DNA of 64,000 nucleotides from Nannochloropsis oceanica. Its lineage: Eukaryota > Sar > Eustigmatophyceae > Eustigmatales > Monodopsidaceae. Positions 915-60,845 of this stretch are shown one piece after another. Location: positions 1,389,574 to 1,453,573 of the forward strand of contig CP038130.1 of assembly GCA_004519485.1 (NCBI GenBank), read 5' to 3'. How positions within the stretch are numbered: the first letter of the stretch is position 1; each line of letters opens with the position of its first letter. Position numbers and translations under genes: made by a program. The notes under the pieces were generated by a model that saw only the letters and a list, made by a program, of their open reading frames with translations, ran no database searches and had not been told where the DNA came from.

Positions 915-3900
915 ATGGAGGCCGGGACGCAAGATATTGTGACGGACGGCAAAGGTAGCGGCAGCGGCAGCGCGGTTTGGAAAGACATCACAGAGGTACG
1001 TCTACGGTCACCATGCAGTAGCCTCCGATGTCTCTCAGCCGCGTGCACCACGCCCACGCATCGAGTGAAATCTCCTCCTCGATATGAACTGGATAGAAAA
1101 GGGTTTATTGTGACTGCTGACAGCGCCTTGCCGTTCTAGTTCTTTCTTCTCTCCCATGCGTCTTGCCCCTGACCATCCCCTCCTCCAACCCCATATCCCC
1201 TCGCCTACCCCTCCACTCCGATGAATAGGAATGCCGCGCTGCCGCCAGTTCGCTGGGTACGGGCGAAATGATTTGTGCGCCGTCCTTTTCCTTGTTCGAG
1301 TCGATGAGCGCCTTGGAACTGATGGACCCCAAGATGGACGAATCCTTGCTCGAGGTAGGGTGGAAGTATAGGGAGAAAGAGAGCGAATCCTTAGCAGTAA
1401 TGAGTGACCGCTGTAAAGACCCAGTGATTTCATTCATCCTACCTTTGAGCTAATTTGCCCACTTTGTACACTTGAACCAACACAGCCTGTGGAAGGCGTC
1501 TCCTCCCGCCTGGCCCGTGGGGAGCTGCCCATCCAAGTGTCTCTGACGCAGGCTGCCAGGATTGTTGGGGGCATGCTAGCGTACGAGGTAAGGGAAGAAG
1601 GAAGGGAAGGAGGAAGAGAGGGAAGGAGGGAGGGAGGGAGTGTGGCAAAAATTGTCTTGAGGTGCATGAGAAGCTATCAACAGCAGGAAGAAATCCCTGT
1701 GTAGGCTTGTTTGATGCTTATGTTCTTCATCTCCCTTCTCCACCACAGGTGGCATGGTACGAGGGCGCGAGTCTCCTCGACTCCCTTTTCCTCTGCCTCT
1801 ATCCGCACGGGGCCGCTATTCACGCCTTATGCTCGATGGTGGGGGTGAAGCGAGGGGAGCAGAAGGAGGAGGATGGGGAGGAGGAAGGAAAGAAGGGCAG
1901 TGGAGGGAACGGAGGAAACGGGGCAGGAGGGGGGCCGATCATGCGCGGTAAGATAGGAAAGGAAGAGAGAAGGAGGGAGGGAAGGAGCGAAGGAAGGAGC
2001 GAAGGAAGGAGGGGAGAATGGAGTATCGGGGGCGATGCCAATGAAGCATTTCGAGGCAGCAAGCTGGGTTGTTCATAATACGTGGGCTGAGAAAGCCACG
2101 CCTCCCTTCGTCCCTCCCTCCCTCCCTTCCCCAGACGCCATCAGTGAGGATCCTGCCTGCATGCCAGCCTTGGTTCTCCTGGCCCTCGTCTTTGGCACCC
2201 TCAAATCAGTAGGGGCTTTCCGGGAGGTACGGAGGGAGGGAGGGAGGGAGGGGTAGCACGAAGGAAGAAAAATGAATTTCAAAATTGAAGAAAAATAAAT
2301 TTTTAAACAAGATGAAGAAAAAGAAGTTGATATCGAAGCCTACGAAAATAATGAGGAGGAGAAGGAGAAGAAGAAGACGTGGTGCGGGATGATGAAAGAC
2401 AACCCCAACGAGGGGGCCATCTGTTCCAGGAATGCGACCGTTGTATTTCCTCCCCCTCGGGGGGAGGTGTTACCTCTGTCCACGAACCCTCCTGGAATCA
2501 TGGCCTCTGTCAGTGAAGACAACGCGCTTGTTCACACAAGCTGTCTGACGTACGACGTATTCTTTCCTCCCTCCCTTCCTCCCTCCCTCCCTCCCTGCCT
2601 GCCTGCCTATCTTCACCATCCATGCGCATCCCTCCCTCCCCCCCTCCCTCCTTCCCTCCCTTTCTGCCCAGGTCATCCTTGACGCGGACATCTACGAGGA
2701 GGAGGACGCCCATCCCAACAGTCTGGGTCTCTATTTGGGTGAGAATCTGCTCCTGGAGGATGCCGTGTTCTTACTGGAGAAGGTAGGGAGGGAGGGAGGG
2801 GGAGGGAGGGAAGGAGGGAAGGTGGAACGGATTGTCAGGGCTGCCGCTTGTCCTTGACTACGCCTCTCATGCTTGCTCTTATTATACACCCCAGTCACGT
2901 GCCTCTCTCGCATCCCTCTTGGAAGGAGGGAGGGAGGGAGGGAGGGAGGGGGGAGAGGGGGAGGCAGAAGCGATCCAATCACTGCTGGCCCATCTTTCCT
3001 TCCGCCTTGCCCTCCTGAAGATGCAAGCTCTTTTACGTGAGTGGCATGGAGGGAGGGAAGGAGGGAGAGAGGAAGGAGAGGAGGTGGGAGAGAAGGAAAA
3101 AGGGAGGGAGGGAGGGAGGGAGGGGGTAGTAGATCTGGCGCAGGAGTGAGCCACTTTGACAGGGGAGGATGGAGGAAGAGGGGGAAGGAGGAATAACGAG
3201 AGGGAGAGGGAGGGAAAACTCTCGAAACCTGCGCTGAATCATTCGCCGACCTTCTCCCACCATTCACATCTTCTTTCCTCTCTTCTCTCAACTTGCGCCT
3301 ATATATACACATACACATTTTCAGTCTCATTCTCTCCGGCGCTGGGCGAAATGGAGGGGGCGACCCTGCACAAGGCGCTGGCAGAGGCCCTCGCTGCCTT
3401 AGAAAGGGTGAAGGAAGAGGAGGAGAAGGAGGAGGAGGAGGAGGGGAAGGAGGAGGAAAAGGAGAGAGGGAAGCTGGGCTCGGTGGCCTTTGCCTTCGAT
3501 CGAGGCATCACCCGCGCGCTCAAGGTGAGGTTCAAATGGAGGGGACGAAATAAAGCTTCCAGAACAAGTAAGCGAGCGATCGGCACGCTCATCCCTTCCG
3601 TCCCTCCCTCCCTCTTTTTAGGGCAACGCTCCCAGGCGCGTCATTCGCATTCCCTCTCAATCGCAAGCCCTGGAGCGCTTCCGTCAGCTGTTGCTGGAGC
3701 TGCAGGAAAGCCTGCAGGCTTTCGCCTTCGATGTAAATCACGAGGTGAAGAGGGAGGGAAGGAAAGAGGGAGGGAAAGAAGGAGGTGTCTGTATCGACAC
3801 TTCTGATTGCCCGTCTTTCGCGCATTTTCTCTGGCATGGAATTTGGAGGGTTTCCCCCTTCATTCATTCACTCTATCTTTGTTTCTTTCATTCATTCTTC

Positions 3901-6536
3901 CTTTCTTTCTCTCATGTTTATTTTTTCCTCTCTCCCCAGGTCTTCTCCCTCCAGCGGCTCCGTATGGTGCTGGAAGAGCTCGCTGCTTCCTCTCCCGGAA
4001 TCATCGCCCGCTCCTTCCTCCATCGACACCTGGTGGTGAGAAGGGAGGGAGGGAGGGAGGGAGGGAGGGAGGGAAGCTCACAGGCTTTCCTCCTTGTCCG
4101 CCGATGGACCAATAACGTTCCTCCTTGTTATCAATCGTGTTTTCACCCTCCCTTCCCTCCCTCCCCTCCACTCCCTCCCTTCCCCCCTCCGCACACTAGA
4201 AAGAAGAAGAGGACCTCCTCCTGGGTCGCTTCCCCTTCTCCCTCTCTATCGCCGAGCACATGCAAGGGATGGGCCTTCCTCTTGGTCTGGTCTACTCCGA
4301 CCAGTGCCACACCTTCATCCTTTCAGGTACCTGCGCCCTCCCTCCCTCCCTCCCTCCCTCCCTCCCTCCCTCCCTCCCTCCCTCTTTGACCGATTTCCGA
4401 CCAAGTTAAGTTTTTGGGCCCTCCTTCCCTCTCTCCTCCTTAGCGGCAAAAACCCTCGCGGAGGGCTTGCGTGGCTTTTGCCACAATCGGGCCCGGCAAC
4501 GAGTGCGCTTGGAGGTCCTCTTTCAGGTAGGGGGGAAGGGAGGGAGGGAGGGAGGAAGGAAGGGAGGAAGGGAAGAAGGGAGAGAGGGAGGAAGGGAGCT
4601 CGCAAGCTTACGCTGGAGTAACAGGTGAGAAGGAGGGGAAGAGGAAGAAAGGAAGGAGGAGGGGGAAGGGCCACACAGACATGTGGAGATAATCCGTTAG
4701 TTTACTTGATTCATACGTTCGTTCATCGATCTGTTGATTCATTCATCTATAGATTTATTCATTCACTGATTCACTCACTGCCTTCTTGTCTAATTGATCG
4801 GTCGAATGGTCGATTCTTGTCCTGTCGTCCACAGGATCTCGGAGTGCTGCAGGAGCAGGCAGCCTCCTTGGACGCCGACTTCCGAATGTTGAATCAGGTG
4901 AGGGCCCGGAGGAAAGAGGGAAGGGAGAGAGGGAGGGAGGGAGGGAGGGGGGAAGGGAGAAGCACGCATGGGCCTAGGCCATTCACTCTCTCAAATCCTC
5001 CGCATCTCTTGGCTCCTTTTTTTCTCTGGGCAGCTGCCGGACAAGAGCACGAGTTTCCTCGTACAGTGGATCATGGAGGAGGCTCTCAGGTTGGATCGGA
5101 TCCCTCTTCCCCTCCCTCCTTCCCTCCCTCTTTATTTCCCACTTTCCCTCTCTCCGTTTGACACCTCGGAGCTTCACGGTACCCGCTCACATGTATCTCC
5201 TCCCCCCTCCCCCCCCCTCCCTTCCACATAGAGGCATGCAAGCCTACATCCAACTGGGCTTTGAACTCGAGTTGTATGCGGATGTTGAGGCGGAAGCCGT
5301 GTTATGGTACCTGGACTGTGTCTTGAGCATACGGTGAGGGAGGGAGAGGGAGGGGAGGGAGGAGAGGGGAAAGGAGGGAAAGAAGGAGGGTGGGTAGGAA
5401 AGTACTCTCGTTCGGCCCCGAAGGCAAGCGAAGGCAGGGCATACCAAACCTCTTCTCATCCCATTTTTCCCTCCCTCCCTCCCTCCCTCCCTCCCTCCCT
5501 CCCTCTCCCTCGCTTCCTTTCTCCTTCCCTCGCCGTAGCCTCCAACTGCTCAGCAGCCTGGAAAACCAGCGCCTGGAGCTGGAGCACCTCCGCCGCAAAT
5601 CAGAACAAGCCGCTCGTGCAAAAGGGAAAGAGGAGAGGAAGAGCAGCGGTGCAACGGCAGCGACAGGAGTGGCTGCAAAGGGAGGGGGGAGGAAGAAGAA
5701 AGTGAGGGACAAGAGAGGCAAGGCGGGAGGGAGGAAGGAGTTGCAGGGGGAGGAAGAGGAAGAGGAGGAGGAGTGGAGGCCAACAGTTCGTCCGGATGAC
5801 GATGCTTTGGCTGAGGCACAGGTAGGAAGGGAGGGAGGAAAGGAATAATGAAGGGAGGGAGGGAGAGACATGTCTCACTTATCTGCCAGCGCGTTTTACT
5901 CTCTCTCCCTCCCTCCCTCCATCCCCCCCCCTTTTCCAGATCTCCCTCTCTATCCAGCGTCTCCTCGCCCGTGGCACTCACCTCGCCTTAACAGCCTTCG
6001 GCCGTGCCCGAGGACACCCTCCTCCCCCCCCCCCCCATGGCTCGGCAGCCTGGAGGTTCTTCCACCGCTTCAAAGCGTTCTCGGTGTTGAGATACCCGGA
6101 AATGTTGACTTATACAGACTTCCGGGATAATCACCAATGCTGGGAGGAGGAGGAGGAGGAAGAGGAAGGGATGGAAGGGAGAAAGGAATGTGGAGAGGCG
6201 GAGGAGGGAGGGAGGGAGGAGGCGAGAGGGCAGGTGTTGGAAGATGCGAAGGGGTGTTTTAAGGCGGTAAAAACCTTGGTGGACCATGGGATGAGGATCA
6301 AGAGTCACTTAAAGGACGAGCAGGGGAAGGCGGGCTTGAGGGATCTGGCGAGAGTGGCGGTGTCAAATAGCGTGGTTCTAATGCAAGCAGAGAGGGCGTT
6401 GATGGTGGGGGAAACGGAGGGGGAGGGAGGGAAGGAGGCGAGGAGGAAGAGCAGGAAGATGAAGAGGGCGAAGGTAAGCTTGACCTTCGCCGCGCACCGG
6501 CAGTTCCCGGTGCTGTCTGTAACGGTGCCGGAGTAA
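915..6536 (+). CDS. NAA35: N-alpha-acetyltransferase 35, NatC auxiliary subunit (Mak10)
   Basis: This is the auxiliary, ribosome-anchoring subunit of the NatC N-terminal acetyltransferase, which works with NAA30 and NAA38 in the cytosol. Seventeen exons keep frame: 915-995, 1229-1354, 1486-1587, 1749-1947, 2135-2226, 2672-2782, 2895-3036, 3325-3524, 3622-3744, 3940-4035, 4200-4326, 4444-4526, 4835-4897, 5034-5089, 5232-5333, 5539-5821 and 5940-6536. Together they give 860 residues. Family hallmarks are WKDITE followed by the signature MSALELMDPKMD (about residues 54-65), then IYEEED, FCHNRARQR and GFELELY. The C-terminus ends in the family-like HRQFPVLSVTVPE. Lineage-specific inserts are Gly/Glu-rich: exon 4 (GGNGGNG), exon 7, where a GGGA tract encodes REGG repeats, exon 8 and the last two exons. 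The start at 915 is the first ATG compatible with the conserved exon; 786 is an alternative. Identity is very secure, and exon edges in low-complexity parts less so. Confidence 0.93.
4036..4199 (+). repeat. NAA35 intron with GGGA tract at 5' end and CCCT tract at 3' end
   Basis: This 164-nt intron begins GTGAGAAGGGAGGGAGGG with about 7 GGGA units and ends with CCCTCCCTTCCCTCC-type sequence before CACTAG. The two tracts are complementary within one transcript, with a loop of roughly 70 nt between them. Confidence 0.85.
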
Positions 6537-9947: not shown

Positions 9948-12900
9948 ATGTCATCAACATCATTCCGGTCGATGCAAGACCGGCGGCTTCTCACCAGCAC
10001 CGGTGGTAATACCAACCGGTCCTCTTTGTCAGTAGGCGAAGGCTCTCCCCGCGCGACCATCACCTGTACTACCCCAGGCAGCAGCAAGGCAGCCCCCCGT
10101 CGCAGCGCTCAAAAGCACACGGAACAAGAATGTATGAAACAGAAAGAAAAAGATGAAACCATGCTGGAAGAGCCTGTAAAGAAAAATCGGCAGAAGAAGC
10201 GAACGACTTGGAGGGTCGAGACGTTTTGCCGGTGCGTGGTAATTGGAGGGAATGTGGGCTCGTTAAGCGTGATCATGATCTGTAATTTGTACCCCTTTTT
10301 TTCCTTCTCTCTCTATAGAATCAAGCCACAAGTCAATTCGTCTTCCCCTTCGGCCAAGCATTTCCGGTCTATCCCTTACGAATTGCGCCATGGACAAGGA
10401 CGTACGTATTCGTTCTATTTGTGGGTGGAGTAAAGATGAGCAATTATTGGATAGGGCTTATACATCCTTGTATCTCTGCTTCCAATCCCAACTATTTTTC
10501 CTCATAACATAGCCCTGGGTGCAGATCCTCCCCACCGCCGCCTTCGTATAGGCGTAGCAGGGAGCGGTACAGGTGGGATGGCCTTTAACTCCCGCCGACA
10601 GGAGATGGACTTCAGCTTCACAGAGGTGCGCCAGATAGCCAGATAGGGCAAATGGCAAGGCTGGAAAGAGCAAGGATGATATCAATAAATAATTGTTTGT
10701 ACATGGATGAGGAAGCAGGGGCTCGTTATTACCTAAACTCTCCTCTCTTTCTGTCCCTCCCTCTCTCCCTTCCTCTTCAGGTGTTCCCTCCCGCCATCAC
10801 CCAAGACCAGGTCTACCACCGTGTGGCCAGTGCCGTCGTGGACTCAGTCCTACATGGATACAACGGCACGATTTTTGCCTGTACGCGCTTCTCACTTCCT
10901 CCCCTCCCTTCCACACTTCTTCCCGCCGTCCACTGACTCTCCTGTTCCCCACCCTCCTTCCCTGCCAGACGGACAGACGGGCTCCGGGAAGACCTTCACC
11001 ATGACGGGCGGCGACTCCTTCGACGAGCGCGGCCTCATTCCCCGTGCCATCACTGATGTCTATGATACCATCAGACAGACGCCTGACCGACGCTTCAAGG
11101 TCCTTGTCCTCCCTCCCTCCCTCCCTCCCTCCCTCCCTCCCTCCCTCCCTACGTAGCCAATCATCCGCCCGAATGTGACCAACCCATGCCCCCCTATCCA
11201 TTCCCCTTCCTCCCCCAGGTCTTAATTTCATATATGGAGATCTATAAAGAGAGCGCATATGACCTCCTGGACGTGAGCACCCGCACTAAACCCTTAGAGG
11301 GGTGGACCAAAGTATGCATGCCCTCCCTCCCTCCCTCCCTCCCTCCCTCCCTCCCTCCCTCCCTCCCTCCCTCCCTCCCTCCCTCCCTCCCTCCCTCCCT
11401 CCATGCGTCCATCTCTTTCCAGCCCCCTACTCCAGCTTTATCGAATCCAGTTCATAGTCAGAAATGCACGATAAGCCTTCACTTGGATCTTGCCTTCACA
11501 CCCACGCGGAGCTTCCCTTGGTCAGCGGTTTAAACTCTCTCACCCACACACTCCTACCCTCAACCACACCTCTTCTTCTTCCCCCCCCTCCAGATTCAGA
11601 TGATGGACGACGAAGATGGGGAAATGAATCTGCGGAACCTGAAGCTGTACGAGGCCACATCGGAGGAGGATGCTTTGAACCTCCTCTTCCTCGGCAACTG
11701 GCACAGGATTACGAGCTCGACGCCGATGTAAGGAAGGAGGGGGGGAGGGACGGACGGACGGACGGAGGGAATGAGGGAGGGACCGAGGGATTTGTGGTCA
11801 AGGGCGTAATGGGCTTTCTGGGGAAGAGAAGTTACAGTGAGGAATGGAGGGAAGGAGAGAAGGAAAGGGAGGGAGGGAGGGGTCCAGCTCGATGTCGCTT
11901 TGATCGCCGATCTTCCCCCTATATTTCTTTTCTGTCTAATTCATGTAGGAACGAGGCGAGCACCCGGTCTCATTGCATTTTCACCATCCGTATCCAAGCC
12001 GACCCACTCCTGCACGGTACAGAGGGAGGGAGCGAGGGAGGGAAGAGGGAAAGGCGGGAAAGAAAGAGGGCAAAGGAGTCCCCGTACTCACGAGAGAACA
12101 AATGCACTAATTCCTCCTCGGGGTTGCTCTCCCCTCCCTAGGCATCCCGAACCGGCCCTCCAAGTCCACCTTTGGCAAGCTCAATCTCGTCGATCTGGCA
12201 GGTAAACCTCTCTCCTTTTTTCTCCTCCTCTCTTCCTTCCTCCCTCCCACCTTTCCTCACGTTCCCTTCCTTTCATTCAGGCTCTGAACGTCTCTTCAAG
12301 ACGGACAACCACCAGAGTAGCAGTAGCAGCAGCGGCAGCGGCCTGGCCGCCAGCAATTACACGCGGATGGAGGGAAAGTACATCAATCTTTCCCTTCACT
12401 ACCTCGAACAGGTCATCATCGCCTTACAAGACAAAGGTATGTCGCCCTCCTTCCCTCTCCCTCCCCCTCCATCCCTCCTACTCTCATCCTCCCAAAATCT
12501 AAATGTCCATTCCTTCTAAAACTTTTTCACTTGCTCTGCCTTCCTGTCGCTCTTCTCACATTGCCTGCCGCCACATACAGCCCGGAGGCAGAAGGATGAA
12601 GATGAGGAAGGACAGGGCCGGCCTGGCCTTGTCCGCGGTTCCTCCTCCTCTTCCTTCACCAGCAGCTCGCTCTACCCCTCCTCCCCCTCCTCCTACCACA
12701 TCCCTTATCGGAATAGCGTCATGACCTCCATCCTCCGAGACTCCCTTGGCGGGAACTGCAGGACTGTCTTCGTCGTCACGCTCAACACGGTAAGACACCT
12801 TCCTTCCCTCCCTCCCTCCCTCCCTCCCTTTTTTCCCTTCTTTGTCTCACGCACCTTCCTCCCTTTCCCTTCCTCCCTCCCTCCCTCCCTCCCTCCCATT

Positions 12901-15900
12901 CCCTCCTCAGGAACTCGATCACCTGGAGGAGTCTTTGTCCACCTGCCGATTCGCGCAACGCTGTGCCCAGCTCTCGACGGACGTCCTCGCCAACGAAGAA
13001 GTGAACCCAGACCAGCTCACGGCCTCCCTACAAGCTGAGGTATGTCATTTCTCCATCCCTCGATCTATTGCTTCCTCCCTCCCTTCCTCCCTTCCTCCCT
13101 CGATTTCCCTCATCCCTCCTTCTCAGAATCCTTCCGCCGCTTTCCTATTTTTCCTTCTCTGTGTGTACAGGTGCTGCGTCTCCGTCGCAAGATCTCGGCT
13201 CAAGAGACCGCACTTGCGACTGCCCTGACCCAAACACGTACGTGCCCTCTACGTCTCTCCCTCCCTTCCACGCAGCCCATCCACCATCCCTTCCTCCTCT
13301 CTTGTACTTGCAACAGAGGAAGAAGAATCGAAGAACGCCTGGCGGGGTCTGACGGGCGCAGAGAAGCATTTGTGTCGCGATGTTGTCCGCGGCTTTGTGC
13401 AGGTACGAGAAAGAAGAGAGAAATGGAGGGAGGACGGAGCCGAGGGGGCATTTGTCGTCAGCCTTTACTCATAATGTCACGTCTTCTGCCACTTAGGTCG
13501 CGTCCTCCCTCCCTGCCTCCCCTCCCTCCTCCCCTCCCTCGGGCCCGCTCTCCGTCCCTCCCCATTATGAATGGATCTATACACTGGCACGGCCGCTCGT
13601 CGCCTACTGCGCGCATTTGCTCTTGCTCTGGGGGGAGGCCGTCAGGGAGGAAGGGAGGAAGGAAAGGAAGGAGGGAGTGATGAAGCACCAGCAGGAGCAA
13701 TGGAAACGCCACCAGCGGCTCGAGCAGGCGCACCACCATCAGCATCGTTCTTCTGTTGGGGAGAGACCCACATCCGGATTTGCCTTATTACAGCAGCAGC
13801 AACAGCAGCAGCAGCGTGAGCCAGACGCTCAGATCACCCCACACATCCATACCTCTCTCTTTGCGACTGCAGCCCCCACCGCGCCCCTTTCCATCGCTTC
13901 CCCCCATCAGGAAGGGAAGGAGGCGGAGGCGGAGGCGGAAGCGAGGAACGAGGGACGGAGGGTCAGGGGGCTACTGCAGCAGGGGCATGTCTTTTTCAAG
14001 CTGGGGAAAGGGGAAAGGAAGCACGAAAGATTTGTGTGGGTGGCTCTAGACATGACAAGACTGCACTGGCGGAAGGAGAGGAAGGGAGAAAAAAAGGGAG
14101 GGAATAAGGGGGAGGACGAGGGAGAGCATAAAAATGGCAATCCTCCTATTTCTTCCTCGTTCCTTGTTCTTTCAGACTGCCAGCGTGTAGCCGCTGGTCG
14201 TGACGGCGAGAGAGGGGAAAAGGAGGGGAAAAGGGAGGAAGAGAAGGGTGTCTTTTTCACCCTGTACAGTCACGACCGCTACGTCACATTTGAGGTCCCT
14301 CCGTCCCCTCATGCCAAGCGAACAAGAAACGCCTGGGTTGCAGCCTTAGCCTCTGTCCTCCAGCAACAGCAACTACAGTCGCAGGCCCTCTCTCCCTCAC
14401 GATCCCCCCCCCTCCCTTGTCTTTCTCCTGTTCCACGAAAGACGTTGACGCGGTCGAAAGCGTCCAGACCTGCCATGAACCTCGCTGTGCATCCCGTACC
14501 GCGCGAGGAGCAGAAGATGAAAGAGGCAGGGCACAGGAGAGAGGAGGGAAAGGAGGGCGACCTCTGCCACCAGCACCACCACCGACAGCAGCATAAGGAG
14601 GTCAAGGAGGGGGAGGAGGAGATGATACGGCAGCAGCAGGTGGGACAACAGCAGCAGCGGTACAGTCCACCGCTGGGCCTCTTTGCAACCGAGCATCTTG
14701 ACCAGGAACAACGACAAGAATACCATTCAAGCAGCATCCCCTCTCTCTCCCTGCCTCCCTCCGAGGAGCCATCGCGGTATATCTACCCCCCTCCCTCGCA
14801 GTTGCAGCCCGTCCTGTCCTCAACCCATGGTCGTCAATACCAGCAGCAAGCGAAAGAGTGCCATGGGCAAGTGTCTGTGGCTCAATCTTCCGTCCCCTCT
14901 TCGTTACACCCTCATCGGCCTACTGTTACTTCTTCTCCACCTTGTTCTTCCCTGCAGGAGCAGCAGCAGCACCAGCACCAGCACCAGCAGTACCAAGGAA
15001 AAATTGAGGAGGGTGGGTATAGCCAGGATCACGATCGAGGGCATCAGCAGCAGCAGAAATCATCGGTTGCCCATCGCTATCCAATTTACCCACCCCTTTC
15101 TTCTTTCTCTTCCAAATGTCCTTCCTCCCGCCATCATCTCCCGCACCAGCAGAACCAAAAGGGGCAAGACGGAGAAGAAGAACCTCGCGCAAGTACGACA
15201 GAAACGGATGACAGTGAAAAGAAAGTGGAGAGCCCCCAGGCCGGAGTCTACCCCATCTATCCTCCTCCGCCTGTTGGTGTTCCTCCCTCCTACTTCTATA
15301 CCCTTCCCATCCCCATAGAAAACACCGGCAGGCGGACTGGCAGAAGAGATGGCAACACATGTGATGCCTCCTCCTCTCCTTCCTCCTCTTTCTCCCTGCC
15401 CTTCTCCCAGCCGTCCTCGTCCTCCATTCGTCCTCCAAAATCTCAATACCACTACCATATTTTGAGCGAGCGAGGCGAACCCCTCCGTCCCTTCCCCCCT
15501 CCATCGACTCCAATTACCTTATGCAATTACCTCTCCCAGAGTAAAACTGGCGATTGGGAAGACAATTTGAAGATCCTGCAATCTGGAGGACGGAAAGGAC
15601 GAGCAGAAGGAGAGAGGGGAGGAACTACGGTCAGGGGCTTCAGCCTCACCACCTCTGTTTCCCCCTCGGCCTCCTCCTTCCTTGGGTCATCGTGCGGAAG
15701 CTTAAGGGACAGCAGCCCTGCTCCTAAAAATGTCCTCTCCACCGCCACTACTACCACCTCTCACTCCATCTCTTCCTGCCCCTCCTCGCGTCCTTTTCTC
15801 CAGCGCAGCAACTCTCAGACTGTCACTGTCCCCCCTGCCTCTCCCTTTCTTCGTCGGCCTCCCTCTCTTCCTACCACCCCCATGACATCGACAAATCAAG

Positions 15901-16013
15901 ATCAAGGAGGGAAGGAGACACATGTACCTTATTCTTCGTCACGGGACAAAGAGGGGAAGAGGTTGAGGAGCGCGGCTCGAGTAAAGCTCGAGTCGCGACC
16001 TGCTTTTTACTGA
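9948..16013 (+). CDS. Kinesin-9-like motor protein with C-terminal PH-like region
   Basis: This is a microtubule motor of about 1405 residues. Fifteen exons keep frame: 9948-10231, 10319-10401, 10525-10625, 10781-10880, 10969-11099, 11219-11311, 11594-11727, 11949-12016, 12142-12201, 12281-12436, 12581-12789, 12911-13039, 13171-13237, 13317-13402 and 13497-16013. Motor motifs are VETFCRIKP, P-loop GQTGSGKT (about 191-198), switch I NEASTRSH (about 310-317), switch II DLAGSER (about 350) and the [11 protein letters not shown] region. [15 protein letters not shown] and LEQVIIAL resemble KIF9/kinesin-9 more than other families. A Ser-rich insert follows DLAGSER and a Ser/Glu-rich insert lies in exon 11. 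The single 839-codon last exon contains a PH-like stretch at about 723-858, from GHVFFKLG through [14 protein letters not shown] to [12 protein letters not shown], then a long Gln/His/Ser-rich disordered tail. The family call is good; the PH assignment rests on pattern only. Confidence 0.9.
11321..11402. repeat. (CCCT)n tract in kinesin intron 6
   Basis: About 20 near-perfect CCCT units follow the donor at 11312. It is one of the longest pure tetranucleotide tracts in the window. Here the sense strand is C-rich right after the donor, opposite to most NAA35 introns. A shorter (CCCT)n tract of about 12 units lies at 11106-11152 in the previous intron. Confidence 0.9.
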
Positions 16014-22003: not shown

Positions 22004-25000
22004 ATGATATCCTCCATCACGTGGGTAAGCCTTTGTCGCATTTCCCCTTTTTCTGAGCCCCTCTCATTCTTCCTCGAATCGATCCTAACCACCCCTCCCG
22101 CCCCTCCGCCCCCCATTGACATGGGACAGGTGCCCCGCGGCGCCGCTAACCCGAACCCACCTCGCTTCCAAGCGTGCAAGGAAGAAGTCGAGTAAGTGGT
22201 CATGGACAAGGGAGGAAAAGGTGGCCGTGATGAAAGCAAGAGCACTGGGTGGTAGAGGAGGCTGACCGCGCCATCCCCCATCCGCCCACTCCAATATAAC
22301 AGGGCCCTGCTCAGGAAGCATGTTAGCGGCGATAACAACGATGAGGAGGAGGGAGGAGAGGAGGAAGCGGAAGATGTGGATGTGGAGGAGGGGAAGAAGG
22401 TGGAGTTGGACCGACATGGCCTGCCGGCCGAGTTGAGGATGGATGACTACGACGACGATGACGAGGCGGCAGGAGGGGGCCAAAAGGCCGCATTTATTCA
22501 TGCAGACGCTAGTGAAAGTGATGAGGAGGAAGAAGAGGATGAAGAGGAAGATGTGGAGGAGATGTTGGAAGGAAAGATGCAGGAAATGGAGGAAGCGGAG
22601 GGTGAAGACGAGGACGAGGACGGGGAAGGGGAGGAGGAAGGGGAGGATAAGACGGGAGAGGAGGAGCTTGCGGGCGTGTTACCGGCCAGTGTATTTATGC
22701 GGGGGATGGAGGACGATGGGGATGATGACGAGGACAGTGAGGATATGGACGACCATATGATAAGGCCCACGGATGCCGTTGCTCTCGTAGCGAACACGGA
22801 AGGTGAGCGGTGGGGAAGGAAGGAAGGACGGCGAGACGGAGGGACGGTGGGACGCAGGGATGGGTTGGTAACACCCGTAAGATTCCATCTTGATCAAAGG
22901 GACTTTCTGACACCTCTCCATTCCTACCTTCCCCCTCTCCCTTCCCTCCCTCAAGACGAAGAGCACTCCTCCCTGGAGATTCACGTGTACGAGGAGGACA
23001 CGGGTTCGCTCTACATCCACCATGACATCTCCTTGCCAGCCTTTCCCCTCTGCTTGGCCTGGGGGCATTGTCCGCCTGTTGCGGGACGAGAGGTGTGGAG
23101 ATGGAGGAGACGGAGGGAGATAGGGAGGGAGGGAGGGAGGGCGGGAGGGAGGGAGGGCGGGCGGGCCGGAGGGCAGACTTGAAGAACACGGGATAGAGGC
23201 AGTCGATCAACCCTCGAACTTACCACCTTCTCTCTTTCTCTCTCTCCTTCCCTCCCTCCCTCCCTCCGCCCTTAGGGCGAGCGCGGCTCCTTCGTAGCCG
23301 TGGGCACCTTCAAGCCGGGCATCGAGATCTGGGACGTGGATGTGATTGACCCTCTGGAACCCACGCAGGTCCTGGGGGGGGAGAGGGCACTGCAGGGGTA
23401 GGGAGGGAGGGAGGGAGGGAGGAAGGGAGGAATAAGAGAGGGTCGCGCGGCAGAGGTATTGCCAGGCCCATGATCGCCCAAGAGCGCTGGGAAGCTCATT
23501 TCTTATCTCATTTCCCTCCCTCCCTCCCTCCCTCCCTCCCTCCCTCGTACCCAGAATCCCCCCCTCCGATAGCAACAGCAGCAGCAGCAGTATCAGCAAG
23601 AAAGAGAAAGGCGGCAAGAAGAAGAAGAAGCGGCAGCAGGAGGAGGAGGAGGGGGAGGACCTGGTGGAGGGCAGTCACACAGGGCCCGTTATGGCCTTGG
23701 CCTGGAACCAGTTCCACAGACAGGTGCGACCGCCCTCCCTCCCTTCCTCTCTCCCTCTCTCCTTCCCTCTCACCGTCCATATTGGTTCCACCATTCACCC
23801 CATAAGAACCGTCCGTGCTCTATTGGTTCCACCATTCCACCTCATAAGAACCGTCCGTACCCTAAACCCCCCCCTCCCCTTTCCCCCCCCCCTCCATCCC
23901 TCAAGGTCCTGGTCTCCGGTTCCGCCGATGCCACTATCAAGTTGTGGGATGTGACGACGGGGCAGTGTTCCTCCACATACACGCATCACGTGGACAAGGT
24001 CGCCTCTCTCGACTGGCACCCTGTTGAAAGTACGCTCCCTCCCTCCCTCCCTCCCTCCTCCTCATGGCTTTCCATTGTGTTGTCTAGTCCCTCGCTGCTC
24101 GTGTGTGTCTGGCTGGCCATGACCACAATGCACCTATCCACCCTCCCTCCCTCTGCCCGCAGGCACCGTCCTGGCCTCGGCGGGTTTCGACAAGGGAATC
24201 TACGTCCTGGATGCCCGGGGGGAGACCCACAGCAGCCACGTCCAGATGAAGGGAGCGGGCAGCAAGGTAGGGAGGGAGGGAGGGAGGGAGGGAGGGAGGG
24301 AGGGAGGGAGGGGACCAAGCCCGGCAGTCCACACATACGATCTTTCACGTGCCTGTCCATCGTCCTTCCTCTTTGTTGTTGTGCTTCTTCCTGCAGACCG
24401 ACCCCGAGTGCATCGGCTGGTGCCCGCACTCGCCCTCAACCCTCCTCTGCGCCACCGAGGACGGTACCCTCATGGCCTGGGACGTCCGGTAAGCCGCCTT
24501 TTGCCCTTTCTTCCTCCCTCCCTCTCTTCCATCCACCCTCCCTCCCCCCCTCCCTTTTCTGTCGAGATAAACCTCCTTTTTGACTCGATCCCTATTTTTC
24601 CTCTCTCACTCTACCCCACCCTCCATTCCTCCCCTCCAGGTCTCCGTCTGCTCCCCTGTGGAAGCTCAAGGCCCACGCCAAAACCTGCTCCTCCTTTGCC
24701 TTCTCCCCCCTCGCTTCCGGTCTCCTGGCCACCTGCGGCATGGACAAGACCGTCAAGCTCTGGGTACGTCCTCCCTCCCTCCCTCCCTCCCTCCCTCCCT
24801 CCCCCCCTCCCTCCTTCCACTCCTCTCCCGTTCCTCGCACTTCACCTTGGGTTGACCTGAGCATTATCCCGCCCTGTTTACTTATGTCTCCTCCTCCTTC
24901 CCCTTCTCCTCCTCTTCGTCCCCTCCTACCCCTCAGGACTACTCGAGCGCCGCCGACGCCGCCCCCCGGCAGCTTGGAGAGAAGGCCATGTCCGTGGGAA

Positions 25001-25413
25001 AACTCTTCACCGTCTCCTTCTACCCAAGGTAAGGCTCTTCCTCCCTCCCTTCCTCCCCCCTCTCCTTCCTTCCCATGGGCACTCTCGGTCTTCTCGTGCT
25101 TGGGTTTACTTTCTTCCACTCTTCCCCTTCCTCCCTGCTTCTCAGCTCGCCCTTCCTCCTGGCCACGGGCGGTGATAAGGGCCTCTTGGCTCTGTGGGAC
25201 CTGCACGAGTGCGAGGGGGTCATGCGACGATTCGGCGGGGAGGGGGGAGGGGGAGGGAAGGAAGCAGGGGCCGAGGCCGCGAGCATGATGGAAGGCATGA
25301 CGCTGGGAGGGGAAGGGGAGAAGGAGAAAGGGGAGCGGAAGGAGAAGAAGATGGAGGGGAAGAAGGAGAAGAAGAAGACGGGAGAGAAAAGCCGGAGCTG
25401 TCGGAAAAAGTAA
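22004..25413 (+). CDS. PWP1: PWP1 homologue, nucleolar WD40 ribosome-biogenesis protein
   Basis: PWP1 (periodic tryptophan protein 1) is a nucleolar WD40 protein needed for large-subunit rRNA processing. Twelve exons keep frame: 22004-22024, 22130-22191, 22303-22802, 22956-23092, 23276-23397, 23555-23723, 23906-24029, 24163-24266, 24397-24488, 24640-24763, 24937-25028 and 25146-25413, giving 604 residues. The N-terminus MISSITWVPRG is family-typical and is split by a 21-nt first coding exon. A long Asp/Glu-rich region (about 40-170) is followed by the PWP1-specific LEIHVYEEDTGSLYIHHD and IEIWDVDVIDPLEP. A Lys-rich linker comes next, then WD repeats with visible GSADATIKLWDV, SAGFDKGIYVLD, DGTLMAWDV, GMDKTVKLWD and GGDKGLLALWD. 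The tail is Lys/Glu-rich and may be a nuclear or nucleolar targeting signal. All exon phases agree, so the structure is secure. Confidence 0.94.
24267..24313 (+). repeat. (GGGA)n tract directly after a PWP1 donor site
   Basis: The intron opens with GTAGGGAGGG and continues for about 11 GGGA units. It is the clearest example of the G-rich donor-side tracts found in many introns of this window. Runs of GGG spaced by single A can form G-quadruplexes. Confidence 0.9.
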
Positions 25414-36181: not shown

Positions 36182-47611
<11,430 letters not shown>

Positions 47612-49287
47612 GCGCTAGGGCAGCGGCACTCGACCGCTTTCAGTGATGAAAAGGCTTAGCTAGAATGTAAGACGGCTGCTTGATTGTGTAGGTTGGCACA
47701 GTTCGGAGTGATGCGCTTCGCCGCTTTGTGGTGGCTTCGACTGGGTCTGCACCTCTGAGCGCCTGTGGTGCCGATGAGAAAGGGGAAAAGGTGAGAATGC
47801 ATCTTCACTCCCGGAATATCAATGCCTTTGGTCCCTTCTCCTCGTACGCTGCTCTTCCCTCGCGGTTGTTTGCAACAAAAGAGCACCGCACCTGGGGCAG
47901 GCTCGATGACATACCACAACAGATGGGTCAACGATGGCAACGACTCGCTCATCTCTTGCAACGGAAAGACAAGGCAAGGAAAAGGGCATGTCGTAGAGTT
48001 TTCTCTACCGCCACCGCTTATAAAACACTACATGTGTATTGTAACGCGAAGCGGGGTGAAAAGGTGGTGCGTCCCGTACAAAAAGAAGAACGTTAAACAC
48101 CAAAAACAATGGGACTTGACTTGCCCTCAGTCACACAACGGCTTAGATTACGCGCAAACGACGCCGCCGCGTGCAAAAGCAAGAACGCTGTTGGGCTCGG
48201 CTCCTCTCGCTCGACGACATTCCCCTCTCCAACCATCCACAGTCTCCGCCGCCAGACGTGTCGATGATCACACACGCGCCCATCAGAATCACCAACTGAA
48301 GACTTAAAATTCTTTACGCTATTTCGGTGCACTTGAGGCATGACAAGTGCAATGCTTTTTTTTTGTGAAGTTGCCGCACTAGCCAATTGTGCATGTACCA
48401 TGTCTTGGGGAAATTGATACTGACCCGGGTAAAGCCACCTAACAAATCGAAATGTTTGATGGGCTGTTTGTATCCATCGACATATCTGGTGTCTGGCGGG
48501 GGAGAAGTCGCAAATCTGAATGGTTAGGGGGGGGACCGCGAATCAGGCTCCATCATGCAGACCAACCTCCTCCCTCTATGTTGAAGGGGTCCCATTTGGG
48601 AATATGTCCCAATTACGAGACATGGTTAGACGGAGGTGAAAAAAATGAATATTGTAAACTCCTATCCCCTTGGATTTGCATCGGTCATAGACGAGGGAAA
48701 GCAGTCAGTCGGTCGGAATGCGCCCTTACACCTGCTGAAGACTTCTGCGCAAAAAAGGCGGTAAATTTAGGAGCACATGTCCATAAAACCATGTTGAGAT
48801 GGACAATGAGCTCCTGTCAATATTCAATCAACCTCCATCCAAATCCCTTGGTACATCATCCTAGCGACCGTCCATGGAAAAGGTACACTTTATGAAAATC
48901 AACGACTACAACATAGAAACCGCACTGAAATAAACATAATCATGACGCATTCACCAAACAGCTTGACGACTGGTCTTTTCTTTTACAGCATTTGTTCTTC
49001 GTTTTTTCCTTTCTTTCTCCTCGCATCCATTTTTACCTCTGGTCCTAGCTCGACTTGACGATACGACAGGACGCAAACATACATGCATCACACTTCAGCA
49101 GCACTAAACATACATTCTCTTGTACAAATTGTAACAGTCATTATGCATGAGTAAATCATTTGCCTCCATCCCTTCACCCTTTAATCCTGCCAAAACGGCG
49201 TGAAAAACTTCTCTTCTTGTAAAGGGTTCCTTTGTCCCATATTTTTTCCTCCTATGCACATACCCTTCAAGGATCAACACGTATAAT
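47612..49287. other. Long intergenic region upstream of the ABC gene, with one orphan ORF
   Basis: This 1.7-kb gap is AT-richer than its surroundings and has no tetranucleotide tracts. It must hold the ABC promoter and the 3' UTR of the hydrolase gene. One plus-strand frame at 48452-48895 (147 codons, from MFDGLFVSIDIS) is long for the local composition but matches no family I know and has no partner exons, so I do not annotate it as a gene. There is no tRNA or repeat. Confidence 0.4.
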
Positions 49288-51037
49288 TCAAGCGGCGCTC
49301 AATCCCTTCCGTTTCTGCCTGCGCTTCTCGGTCATGTCATTGGCTGCTATTCTCACCAGCCCCGACTCCTTGGCTTGGCAGTGCATGGCTTCGATCAACC
49401 TGTCCTGTGCACTCAGCGACAGCAGCATCTGTCCGTGTCCAATACCCTTCCAATACACTAGCCGTCCATTTCCTTTCTTATTCCTCTGGTCCTCCAACTC
49501 CTCTCTTTCTTGCTTCTCTTTCTGTTTCACTTCCCACATGCCGTAGTGCCGCTGGACGTAGGCCCGGATGGCGGTCGAGGGGACAATGTCGTCCTCGGAG
49601 GAGAGGGCCACGACCAAGGGGCAGGTCACATCCTGCAGCCACGTCACGTTCTGGTACCACCAGAAGTGCCGCCTCAAGGCATGAGAGACTGTGATCTCGC
49701 TGGAGGGGTCTAGCAGATCTTTCAGAGTGCGGTGGAAGAGATTGGAGGGAGGAGACCTGTACAGGAAGTTAACTGCCACGTCGGGCAGGCAAAGGAGGAG
49801 GCAGACCGGGTCGATCAGCACCAGCTGCTGGACCTGGGATGGAAATGCTGCTACGGCCCATCCGGCAACGATGGAGCCGAAGGAGTGCCCGGCCACGGCA
49901 CAATGAGCTATGGAATGTAGGGAAAGGATCTCGGCCAGCGACTCCACTGTCTCGGCCCGGTCGGGCGCTTCGAAGGAGAGCTGGGTGATAATGTGCGGCA
50001 CCTCCAGCAGGATAATCTCCCGACCCTTGCCAAGACGAGAAAGAAATGGAATATAGAACCAGATACCTTTTGAGGGAGTGGTAGAATTGGAGGAAGAGGG
50101 AGGTGGGGGAGAGAGGGAAAGGTGAAGGAGAAGGGATAGGCAAAGGATCGACAATCCACCAAAAATCCTTTAGGTTCCTTTCTGACTGAATCCAAAGAGA
50201 GGGGGGGATTAAAAAATGATGCAACGTGCGAGAGTAAGTGTAAAATGACTTTATGCTCTACGCACACGTACGCATTATTCCCTCAAACCCCCAAACCCAC
50301 ACACTCACCATCCACCCACCCCCAGTCCCCATCGTAACCAACCTACCTGGACTAATGCCATGAAAAAAGATTAGAGGCGGTTGCTTGACCGAGCCTTCTT
50401 GCTGCTGACAGGGCCGATGCCAATAGACGAGGTTGTGGGTGGGGGTCAGATATCGCCGGTGACCCATGAGGCGGAGAAAGCCGTGCCCCATCATCTGAGC
50501 CACCTTGACAGCAACGTAGAACATGAGTAGGCGGTGGGAGAAGTGGAGGGCCTCTCGGGTGAAAGCCACGTGCTCAATGTCCGGATTATACCCGCGAGGG
50601 AAGGGCTTGCCCTGCAGCCCCTCCATCAGCTTCACCGTCGCCTCCAAAGCGAGGGCGTCTTCAGCCTCGGGCAGGTCTCCTGGCGTGTCCACATTCCAGA
50701 TGGCCCAGCACAAGAAAGCCTTCACGTTCTCCCGCCAGATCTCCGCATGCGCCGCCCCCTTGAACCAACCCGACCAGAATGTTTCTGGGCTGTAGGCACC
50801 TTGTAGCCGATGCAAAGTGTCAGTCAGCCTGGCCAGGCACTCGCGCGGGGGTTGCTGGGAAGGGTGGGAGGGCGCGGTGCGCAGCCGCTCGATCCGGGGG
50901 TGGATGAGGCGGCAGATGACGAAGTAAAAGAGGATCTCCAGACTGGACCACGCAATGACGACTAGCCAGGTCGTGTCTAGCATCAGAATAAAGGAGAAAA
51001 GGGAGGAGGGGGCCGCCTGGAAAGAGCGGCATTCCAT
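49288..51037 (-). CDS. Membrane-anchored alpha/beta hydrolase
   Basis: Two exons (51037-50347 and 50066-49288) give 489 residues; the join is inside FFHGISPG. N-terminal hydrophobic stretches (FSFILMLDTTWLVVIAWS and ILFYFVICRLI, about 14-50) suggest one or two membrane helices. The catalytic domain follows LVYWHRP. It has the oxyanion-hole strand LIFFHGISPG (about 222-231), nucleophile elbow GHSFGS (Ser near residue 310), likely acid in SSEDDIVP and His in GIGHGQM. The order matches a serine hydrolase with a cap between strand 6 and the acid residue. The stretch between anchor and hydrolase (about 60-200) is helical and Trp-rich (AIWNVDTPGD). Substrate is unknown; lipid or ester hydrolysis at a membrane is likely from the anchor. 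The last residues are Arg/Lys-rich (EKRRQKRKG). Confidence 0.85.
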
Positions 51038-52354
51038 GGCTGTTGGTGGGGTGTTGTAGCGTGGAGGAGGAGAGAAAAGGGTGAAAAAGATGGGAGGTAA
51101 GTATGGTCATCGGGAAAAGACCAGGTAACCAAATGTGCAAAAGGATCGACCCAAAGGGAAACAGGAGGTAGGGGTCAATCCCCCCTCGGCAGCAGCACAC
51201 AAGGCCGGGGGGGTACCGGAGTGGGAATCGAGGGGAGGAGGACAGTGGGTATGTAGGTGAATTCGTCTTTTCGAGCTGTACCTGGAAAAGGGGGGCGAGT
51301 ACTTGTATTGATTGGGTTGGAAATAGGCGCACAGAGTGTATGGCCGGGTAGACGCAGAGCATTACGTTCTGGAAAAAGAATATAATGAGCCAAGACGACA
51401 ACGACACTCCGCTAAGCGACCAGAAGAAGTCGTCCCCGACTCCGTCTGTGGAGTCACGAGTGCAGAATCGTGAAAGGGGATGCACATGACTGCTTTGAGC
51501 GAATGGAGTCAAGTATTCATTGGCCAGTGGGTGCGCTTGATTGGACACGACGGGTCGGCAGTCACCCGGCAGAGAATAACAATGTGTGTGAGAGAGTACC
51601 TTCGACTGCAGGGGTAAAGGTTCTGTCGCCCTTATGTAAATGCCGGGGTACAAGGTGTATGTGCAAAAGTGACACGTCGAAGAAAGAGGTTTTGGGAGAG
51701 CATACGTCGTGTCGCAGAACCCGTGCCTTCCTCTGAGGATTCCACTGAGGGGAAGCTCGATGCCGAGGGGTGGCAGGCGATAGAGTAGTTTTCGTCGTGT
51801 TGTATTTGCCCTCTTAAAGAAGTTGTCATGGTGTAGCGAGAACCAGAAAGTTGGGGCTGAGTGCTAGGGTCGACGGCGTAAGAGAGCCCGTGCGGTAGCA
51901 AAGGATCGACCTGCTTATTTTTGAAAAGCTGTTAATCTGCATTTAAAAAAATGACCTTCCGTCTTTTCGCTGATCGGTGACTGCATCCCCCCAAAAAGGC
52001 AGAGAGGCATCCCCAGGGCAAGATCCTTCTGGATATCATAATTATATTGTTCTTTATAGAAAAACACTTGTTGTGTTGGCGGTTGATTTCAATCTCGTCT
52101 TTTGTGGTCTATCCTCTGCAGCTACTGCATGCACAGGCAGTGTCCAAGCAAGGAAGTAACAAGGCCCAAGCCACAATCCTTCCTCACCCTCACTGAGTAT
52201 CACCCCACACATCATCCTACACATGTGTTTTCGCATCTTGCTGTGTTTGTGGCATGCCCTTGCTCTATCCTGTATGGCACAAGACGCGTACACAAGCCAC
52301 CAACCCCGCTTCCCCACACCAACCAACAGCCCCACACGAAACAGTCCCAAAATC
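51038..52354. promoter_or_regulatory. Divergent intergenic region, hydrolase / PEBP gene
   Basis: This 1.3-kb gap lies between two divergent start codons and should hold both promoters and UTRs. Several overlapping open frames (50820-51653 on the minus strand, for instance) have no family features. A 34-codon plus frame at about 51380-51490 is rich in Ser/Asp but too short to trust. There are no repeats. Confidence 0.35.
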
Positions 52355-53431
52355 ATGAAGTTCCTCGTCACCTCTGCCCTGGCATATCTTGCTCTTGGTT
52401 AGTACTCTTCTTTCTTCTTTTTGTTGCCTGTCCATCCTTTACCTCCTTCCATTTTCCCAAGCTTCACCTCAACCCAGCCATTATCATGGTCGTGTCCTTT
52501 TCTTCAACACTTCCTTCCCCTTCTCATTCCCTGTTCACCAAAATCTCGATACATGGCCCTTTCTTTTTTCTTCAGCACCCTTTGCCCTGGCTGTCCCTGT
52601 CACCACGGTGGCTGCCGAGGCCCTGACGTCGCTCAAGACCGCACAGATTATTCCGGACGTGATCAGCAGCTTTGTGCCCACGGCTACGCTGACAGTGGAC
52701 TACGGCAGAATGACCCCTGTTAAAATGGGAGAGGAGATGCTGCCCTCAGAGGTCGCTAAAGAGCCCGTGGTCACTTTCACCGGCACGGATCCCAAGAAGG
52801 TGTGAAGAAGTAGGGAAGAATGGCTGGGTGGGCAGGCGGGAAGGGTGAGAGGTTGAGATAAGAGATGACAGATTGGCCATTGTAGAAAGAATAAGAGGGG
52901 TTTCCACAAGACTCATTTATAGACGAGAGCGACAGAAATATTCACTCCCCATGCTTTCTCACACTCACACTCCTCTGTTTTCCCCGCACTCGCCACATAC
53001 CCACGTCACATCGTATGCTTGTCTTACACTCCTGCATTCCTTCCCTTCCCGCTCCCGCCCCTTATATCCCCTTTCCCTCCATCTCTCTACAGATGTACAC
53101 CCTGGTCATGACGGACCCTGGCGTTCTCGACATTAAGACTCTGCGTGTCGAGCAGCAGAGTGCGTGGCAGTGGCTGCACTGGATCGTGGTGAACGTGCCG
53201 GGCGACATGGCAGTCCCCGCGGCTGGCAAGGTCGTCCAGCCCTACGGCCCGCCTGCACCGCCGGCTGGCAACCACCGCTATACCTTCCTCCTGTTTGAGC
53301 AAAAGGCTGAGATCAACCCCGCAACCCCTAAGGAGCGCGGCTCCTTCGACACTCGCGCTTTTGCCGCCGCCAACAGCCTTACCCCCGTGGGTGGCTTCTA
53401 CTTCCTGGCCCAGCCCGAGGCGGCTCAGTAA
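52355..53431 (+). CDS. Secreted PEBP-family protein
   Basis: Three exons (52355-52397, 52576-52799, 53093-53431) keep phase and give 201 residues. PEBP/RKIP proteins bind anionic ligands such as phospholipid head groups in a small pocket. Residues 1-20 (MKFLVTSALAYLALAPFALA) are a clean signal peptide, with cleavage likely after ALA, so the mature protein enters the secretory path or is exported. Family motifs are TLTVDYG, YTLVMTDPGV, WLHWIVVNVPG (the pocket His), YGPPAPPAGNHRYTFLLFEQ and the C-terminal FDTRAFAA plus VGGFYFLAQ. The usual DPDAP is DPGVL, a change near the pocket that may alter binding. The signal peptide spans intron 1. The last exon has strongly biased C-ending codons, which may mean high expression. 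Identity is secure; ligand is unknown. Confidence 0.93.
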
Positions 53432-58300: not shown

Positions 58301-59072
58301 GCAGCAGGGAGGTGGTGGGGCTGGGCGGGGAGGAAGAGAAGACGAACCGCCAACCACGCCGAATCTCTTGCTGGAGGATCTTCCTAACACGCACAAGCAG
58401 TTCCCTTCGAGACAGAAGCAGCAGGTAGAGGAGAGGGGGAATGCAACTGCCACAGCAGCAGCAGCGACAGGAATCACGGACATGTCGCTCTCCCATCTGG
58501 CTCCCCAGTGCGTTTCCCACTGTCATTCCTCGTCCTCCAACCTCTCTTCCTCCTCCACCACTACCATCCGCCGAGCTGTCTACACCCTCCACCTCCCCAC
58601 GGCCAGCAAAGACATCGAGTACTGGGATTTTACCCACCCTTGTGTCGCCCTCCTCCTTCAGCACATCGACCGCCTTGGCCCTTCCTCTCCCCCTCCCTGC
58701 CCTAACATGCATGAAAACTTTGGGACTAACTCTCTTTCCTTCACTCCCTCTTCCCCCTCCTCTCCCTCCCCTCCCTCCGCTCCCTCTTCTCCCTCCTCCT
58801 CGCGCCTGCTTGCCTCCGTCTTGTCCCTGTACAAGGCCCTTGTGACAGAGAAGCACGCGAAGGACGCAGACGTGAAAGCCGAGCACCTGCGTATGGGCAG
58901 CTTCGACCTGCTCTTCCCTCACCGCCCCGATTTTCTCTGTGCCCGCGCCCAGGCCATCGCTGCCTCTCCCTCCGCCCTGCAGACTCGAAACCGTCTCATC
59001 CCTTCTGACGGTTCAAAGCTGATAGGAGGAGGACAGCAGTATCAGCACCACCACCACCAGCAGCAGCAACAA

Positions 59073-59107
<35 letters not shown>

Positions 59108-60345: not shown

Positions 60346-60845
60346 GAAAAGGGAAGAGTTTGGCAAGAAGGGTGTGAAATATATCGAATGAAATAAAAAT
60401 GAACACACAAAAAGCGCGTTTATTTTTAGGTATGCGAAATGGCATGAGAAAGCACAGAGAATGCGACAAAGAGAAAAAAGACACTCCCGTAATCCAGGAT
60501 ATAAAGCATATTTGCGGCACGTGGGAGGGTACTTGTCCGTGTACGGCCGCAACCCACGACTCGCTCCTTGAATCGAGAAGCAGCAAATGATTTGCATGGG
60601 GTGGGTGAAAAGGCTTGAGGTTGCATGTCTGCGCGCCCTTGGTCAACCAGGCCACCTCGGTGATAGACACGCAAACGTCTATGATGCTGTGCCTGTTTTG
60701 ATCATCGCGCTTTGCTGGGTGGTTTTTGTTTGTGTGGCGCCTGGAGCTTGCCATTCGTCTTCGCCTCCTCCTAATCATCATCATCGCTCCTCAGGTAGCG
60801 CTCTCCCACAACACACCGTACCGATCCACAGGCACACGCACGACC
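60346..60845. promoter_or_regulatory. Intergenic region upstream of the AMPK beta gene
   Basis: This 500-bp gap lies between two same-strand genes. It contains an AATAAA at about 60392, about 45 nt after the preceding stop, a likely polyadenylation signal. The promoter of the next gene lies to the right. No gene or repeat is seen. Confidence 0.45.

Follow-up and report, generated by a model that had tools for sequence, protein, structure and literature searches.

Within the window, a 64-kb stretch of Nannochloropsis oceanica DNA (G000:C4:1389574-1453573, in a 29.26-Mb genome of 32 contigs), the introns of the gene NAA35 appeared in an earlier note to open with GGGA tracts and to close with complementary CCCT tracts. 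This raised the questions of whether such an order is a general property of introns, whether it is linked to splice sites, and whether it exists because the two intron ends pair. We found that introns of N. oceanica tend to open with G runs and close with C runs and that this asymmetry is tied to splice sites, which partly confirms the earlier observation; its interpretation, pairing of the intron ends, was supported in part.

Gene models and tract scoring

We modelled genes in the window and in 25 further 10-kb stretches of the same genome, placed at 400 kb on contigs C1-C20 and at 800 kb on C1, C3, C5, C7 and C9; one of these (L031) was wholly masked, leaving 24 readable. The gene finder was a purpose-written hidden Markov model with a strand-symmetric noncoding model (both strands pooled), splice matrices restricted to -2..+5 at donors and -3..+1 at acceptors, and a coding score from which perfect tracts were masked out. 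It yielded 348 introns with a median length of 170 nt, of which 292, filtered by flanking coding score and length, made up the confident set. Tracts were defined as GGGA or CCCT repeats of at least 8 nt, and introns of both strands were scored on the sense strand. The per-gene tables cover the first and last 60 nt of each intron, arms that overlap where the intron is shorter than 120 nt.

Introns of NAA35 and of its neighbors

NAA35, in the 5' part of the window, was identified because it resembles NatC subunits of solved structure (best E 1.1e-24). Of nine donors that had been named as preceding G-rich tracts, eight (1588, 2227, 2783, 3745, 4036, 4527, 5334 and 5822) are donors in our models, and the ninth, 3037, adjoins an exon at about 2895-3036 that was read by eye and missed by the model. 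Five of the six named acceptors also matched, while the sixth, given as 5940, was placed at 5958 by the model. Across the 15 modelled introns (from 996 on), a tract of at least 8 nt was present as GGGA in the first 60 nt of ten and as CCCT in the last 60 nt of only seven, with five carrying both; scored in this way, the statement that most of these introns end C-rich amounts to 7/15. Two introns that open with C tracts, at 4327 and 5090, had gone unmentioned. The features of NAA35 are as follows (all on the + strand, and from the gene model and tract table unless stated otherwise):

1588..1748, intron: GGGA tract after the donor at 1628-1639; no CCCT tract of 8 nt within the last 60 nt
1948..2134, intron: donor-side GGGA; acceptor-side CCCT at 2111-2126
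2227..2671, intron: donor-side GGGA at 2234-2249; acceptor-side CCCT
2783..2894, intron: donor-side GGGA tracts; 3' end read by eye, the model merging this intron with the next and running on to 3374
2895..3036, exon: read by eye, missed by the gene finder; coding GGGA tract at 2928-2947
3745..3939, intron: donor-side GGGA tract
4036..4199, intron: donor-side (GGGA)8; acceptor-side CCCT tracts
4327..4443, intron, counterexample: (TCCC)11 on the donor side
4527..4834, intron: donor-side GGGA tract
4898..5033, intron: donor-side GGGA tract
5090..5231, intron, counterexample: C tracts at both ends
5334..5538, intron: donor-side GGGA; acceptor-side (TCCC)9 at 5468-5503
5822..5957, intron: donor-side GGGA and acceptor-side CCCT; acceptor at 5958 (model) or 5940 (earlier note)

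GGGA tracts also lie within NAA35 exons (2928-2947, 5725-5732, 6206-6217 and 6421-6432), where they encode low-complexity stretches rich in Glu, Gly, Arg and Lys.

Three other genes of the window were examined in the same way:

22121..25410, + strand: PWP1 gene model, 10 introns
36185..44625, - strand: ABC transporter gene model, 31 introns, tract table
9948-16010: kinesin gene (Pfam Kinesin), in two models (models 2 and 3)

PWP1 had been said to follow the same order, a claim our counts contradict: donor-side G tracts occur in 3/10 of its introns, donor-side C tracts in 5/10 and acceptor-side C tracts in 4/10. The minus-strand ABC gene, when read on its own sense strand, does exhibit the order noted for it, with G tracts in 14 and C tracts in 8 of 31 introns on the donor side, and C tracts in 16 and a G tract in 1 on the acceptor side. 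The kinesin gene, which the finder split where a predicted exon enters a CCCT tract, carries donor-side C tracts in 7/14 introns, more than donor-side G tracts (3/14). Further along the window, at 56772-59126, lies a single-exon open stretch of 785 residues with no Pfam match at E 0.001.

Introns open with G runs and close with C runs

Tract density as a function of distance from the splice sites revealed a strong asymmetry coupled to the sense strand. In the 292 confident introns, GGGA tracts covered 8.5%, 8.9% and 5.0% of positions at 0-20, 20-40 and 40-60 nt after the donor, as compared to 0.4%, 0.1% and 0.6% at these distances before the acceptor. For CCCT tracts, the corresponding values were 8.8%, 10.9% and 7.0% on the acceptor side, as against 2.1%, 6.0% and 4.1% on the donor side. 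Exon tract coverage was 0.8% and 0.5%, and intergenic coverage, calculated with a denominator that includes 10 kb of masked N, was 0.5% and 0.4%, versus 2.4% and 3.4% in introns. Since introns of both strands were scored on their sense strand and the bias persisted, the order follows transcription and not the chromosome strand, as the earlier note had proposed.

Counted per intron, 68 of the 292 had a G tract and 35 a C tract at the 5' end, and 7 a G tract and 85 a C tract at the 3' end; the combination 5'G with 3'C was found in 29 introns, and 5'C with 3'G in none. Donor-side C tracts (35/292) are hence not rare, indicating that G is preferred at donors but not required. When only tracts lying wholly inside the arms were considered, the numbers for 5'G, 5'C, 3'G and 3'C were 37, 24, 1 and 44 in the window (118 introns), and 25, 9, 2 and 39 in the other stretches (174 introns). 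The asymmetry was reproduced under three other gene-finder settings, including one based on GT..AG alone (49, 26, 6 and 66, respectively, in 228 introns).

The gradient is present even where the tracts are not. In the 114 of 216 introns of at least 120 nt that lack a tract in either terminal 60 nt, the frequency of GGG fell from 49.4 per kb at the donor through 15.3 in the middle to 4.9 at the acceptor, and that of CCC rose from 11.5 through 20.2 to 48.8. The tetramer with the highest donor enrichment over intron middles was GGGA itself. Moreover, among the 249 introns of at least 100 nt, G exceeded C in the donor arm of 172, C exceeded G in the acceptor arm of 219, and both were true of 148. 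A pyrimidine-rich stretch lies directly before the acceptor, the purine fraction being 0.37 in the last 20 nt, 0.30 at 20-40 nt and 0.36 at 40-60 nt. Exclusion of AG, which would account for the missing pre-acceptor GGGA, did not show clearly (AG observed/expected 0.85-1.35 over the last 40 nt). Of note, when confident introns at least 100 nt long were scanned over the 60 nt before the acceptor, the commonest CTNAY words were CTCAC (66) and CTCAT (38, raw counts), a possible form of the branch point.

The asymmetry is linked to splice sites

Real splice sites were next to far more G and C runs than decoys with the same words. At positions +7..+46, the 110 real GTRAG donors had 76.4 GGG per kb and the 952 decoys, in five classes, 21.6-39.0, an enrichment of the kind expected of splicing enhancers; G tracts accompanied 30/110 real donors and 71/952 decoys. 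Outside the window, the 65 real donors had 71.2 GGG per kb, as compared to 21.5-36.6 at decoys. Likewise, CCC occurred at 73.6 per kb at real CAGG acceptors and at 11.7-25.3 per kb at decoys, with C tracts at 28/96 real acceptors versus 53/2427 decoys.

Mutation as a possible sole source of the tracts

The earlier note had offered a simpler origin, strand-biased slippage plus selection for a pyrimidine tract, and the pyrimidine tract does fit the acceptor side. We weighed the possibility that the donor side has no role in splicing and is shaped only by strand-biased slippage or transcription-coupled mutation, the acceptor side being no more than the pyrimidine tract. Consistent with a mutational source, the tracts are regional: they cover 58.8 per 1000 bases of the window, as compared to a mean of 16.2 (0-50.2) in the 24 other stretches, and within the window coverage was 47.5-95.8 per 1000 in the six 8-kb blocks of positions 1-48000 before dropping to 4.1 and 11.8 in the remaining two (48001-64000). 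The distance of the window from the end of its contig is about 81-145 kb, and among the matches listed, tracts cluster toward contig ends: 39/56 matches of AGGTRAG followed by GGGAGGGA on C1, and 25/50 of AGGTRAG followed by TCCCTCCC on C1-C6, fell within 200 kb of a contig end, where 13.4 and 13.1, respectively, were expected under a calculation that takes no account of gene density.

Purine-rich words in general also have GGGA neighbors on the same strand. Genome-wide, AGGTRAG was followed within 30 nt by GGGAGGGA 659 times and by TCCCTCCC 161 times (forward counts; the reverse-strand counts, 1538, 350, 124 and 49, include repeated starts), and the non-donor word AGGTCAG had the same two neighbors 71 and 24 times. 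In the sample, the word AGGARAG showed a same-strand bias of 28 to 1, and the sample decoys were G-biased too. As the bias of AGGTCAG is close to that of AGGTRAG, such word counts fail to separate donors from their purine-rich context, and we rejected them as proof of donor specificity. An identical AGGTCAG-plus-tract string occurs at G000:C30:267987-268024 and 275994-276031, two sites roughly 8 kb from each other that may reflect a local duplication.

Nevertheless, a single slippage bias gives one sign per sense strand and so cannot alone set G at one end of an intron and C at the other. In addition, GGG is enriched at the donors of tract-free introns, and real GTRAG donors exceed every class of decoy in GGG. 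Slippage alone is thus insufficient, and we regard a purely mutational origin as unlikely.

Predicted pairing between intron ends

The earlier note had suggested that complementary tracts fold the intron into a stem that brings the splice sites together. Under a strict form of this idea, GGGA and CCCT would be retained because their pairing in the pre-mRNA joins the splice sites, as in the (AC)m-(GU)n introns of zebrafish. The ends are indeed predicted to pair: in the folds of 185 introns with lengths of 120-400 nt, an average of 18.0 pairs joined the two terminal 60-nt segments, versus 8.1 in dinucleotide shuffles, and in the 22 introns with both tracts 34.9 versus 11.0. However, shuffling within 25-nt blocks, by which nothing but local composition is retained, yielded 17.3 pairs. 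Fold energies of the 185 introns were lower than those of both kinds of shuffle (z -1.24 for dinucleotide and -0.77 +/- 0.20 for 25-nt block shuffles). Hence, segregation of G and C accounts for nearly all of the end-to-end pairs, though not for all of the stability.

If pairing had selected the arms, the two arms of an intron should match. Tracts of the types 5'G and 3'C did co-occur (odds ratio 2.6, p 0.005, 216 introns of at least 120 nt), but so, with less certainty, did the non-complementary 5'C and 3'C in the same introns (odds ratio 2.3, p 0.08), and permutation within genes put the co-occurrence of 5'G and 3'C at chance (23 seen, 22.9 expected). Tract lengths were uncorrelated in introns with both tracts (rho -0.02, n=23), as were GGG in the donor arm and CCC in the acceptor arm (GGG5 and CCC3, rho 0.02), and the donor G:A ratio did not track the acceptor C:T ratio (rho 0.04, p 0.54). 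Donor purine and acceptor pyrimidine content were related at rho 0.15, with p 0.027 overall and 0.17 within genes.

Duplex energies favored an intron's own arms (-26.2 kcal/mol) over arms swapped among all introns (-23.6, p 0.0004), among those sharing locus and strand (-25.0, p 0.012) and among those of one gene (-25.5, p 0.079). Own arms also prevailed in the 114 tract-free introns (-22.2 versus -20.3, p 0.0008, unstratified). When swaps were matched by composition, own arms kept an advantage of 0.81 +/- 0.30 kcal/mol with the acceptor arm exchanged and of 0.65 +/- 0.35 with the donor arm exchanged. A small intron-specific excess of arm complementarity may therefore exist. Arm energy was flat with intron length (rho 0.06). 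A reversed acceptor arm was dropped as a pairing control because reversing CCCT repeats yields CCCT repeats again, making the control uninformative. A U2AF65 gene is present, whereas in zebrafish pairing is reported to replace U2AF; this counts against matched arms but does not decide whether splicing here depends on U2AF2. Taken together, the predicted pairing of the ends stands and selection for matched arms is unsupported; we hold the latter to be quite improbable, and the pairing is possibly a by-product.

A looser form would have the G/C layout itself selected so that most intron ends zip together co-transcriptionally. Such a zip would be coded by composition and genome-wide, its arms need not covary, and the microsatellites would only strengthen it in some genes; we give this version slightly less credence still. 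Least plausible, in our assessment, are sense-strand G-quadruplexes or R-loops that pause the polymerase or expose the donor: four-run G motifs were in excess on the sense strand of the first 100 nt (up to half the intron; 57/292 versus 18.5 expected with the arm shuffled), as were template-strand motifs (27 versus 11.7), yet the pre-acceptor C motif was about equally enriched (67 versus 26.4) and perfect repeats generate such motifs automatically.

Donor-side G runs as candidate splicing enhancers

The explanation we consider probable combines G-run enhancers at donors with a C-rich pyrimidine tract at acceptors, on top of which microsatellites have expanded. Its basis is the general sense-strand gradient: runs of GGG, best as GGGA, lie within about 60 nt past the donor, and acceptors are preceded by a pyrimidine tract rich in C. 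The donor-side runs would be intronic enhancers of splicing that assist U1, or a protein binding to G runs, in fixing the donor, and the C-rich tract would be this organism's polypyrimidine tract, presumably read by U2AF65. Regionally abundant GGGA/CCCT microsatellites would then expand where they are compatible with the layout and so become sorted, presumably by selection, with G toward the donor and C toward the acceptor, a sorting from which end-to-end pairing would follow as a by-product.

Components for such a mechanism were found in the genome: a U1 with 82 bits (gathering threshold 69.5) and the 5' end ATACTTACCTG, and a U2AF65 gene that scored 302.5 bits, slightly under the cut-off of 310.3, with solved U2AF65 chains as its best matches (E 1.7e-56). 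The search for SF1 gave no match, but its control also matched nowhere, rendering it uninformative. Compensation for weak splice sites, expected of G runs from vertebrate work, was not seen, which weighs against this explanation: in 249 introns, GGG were more numerous where the donor score was higher (rho 0.22, p 0.0004) and where the acceptor region was richer in T (rho 0.20), and their number was unrelated to the length of the intron (rho -0.01). The donor-side C tracts and the small excess of arm complementarity also weigh against it.

Comparison with known systems

The earlier note knew of no description of such a layout as a splicing aid. This is outdated, as zebrafish introns with complementary repeats at their ends have been reported, and vertebrates are known to have G runs on the donor side. 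For these runs, passages of PMC4463651 describe upstream donors activated by G triplets, possibly through pairing with U1, and list a chicken (A/U)GGG repeat enhancer. The likeness to N. oceanica lies in sense-strand G runs directly past the donor of short introns; here, the runs belong to a small non-vertebrate genome, and no tie of their number to weak donors or to short introns was found. Among the eleven species of PMC9065059, donor-side G-run or G-quadruplex enrichment is reported for mammals and birds alone, with Arabidopsis depleted.

The zebrafish (AC)m-(GU)n introns (Lin et al. 2016) carry one of the two repeats at each end and, according to passages of PMC9198270 and PMC9024468, are spliced without U2AF. 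They resemble the introns studied here in their complementary end repeats and in the possibility of a hairpin. There, however, pairing is reported to replace U2AF, whereas here the arms are uncoupled within genes and U2AF65 is present. Human G-rich and C-rich intronic enhancers accompany weak pyrimidine tracts and, according to PMC2481429, are both located 5' of that tract, whereas here the two are split between the intron ends. The nonconventional and intermediate introns of euglenids have paired ends, which RNA structure unites in a similar way; as characterized in PMC4770533, they rely on conserved short pairing at the borders and have non-canonical ends, whereas the introns here are GT-AG with repeat tracts. 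For Nannochloropsis itself, no work on the G/C layout of introns appeared by title among the literature matches listed, a small share of far larger result sets, which is weak evidence of absence.

The layout is thus real and linked to splice sites. Vertebrates have layouts of this kind, though the work on them gave no reason to expect one in other lineages. A distant and compact genome, rich in introns, that shares this donor-side order even without repeats would provide a separate test case for the definition of donors by G runs, and its natural tracts, being abundant and varied in length, supply many ready-made variants.
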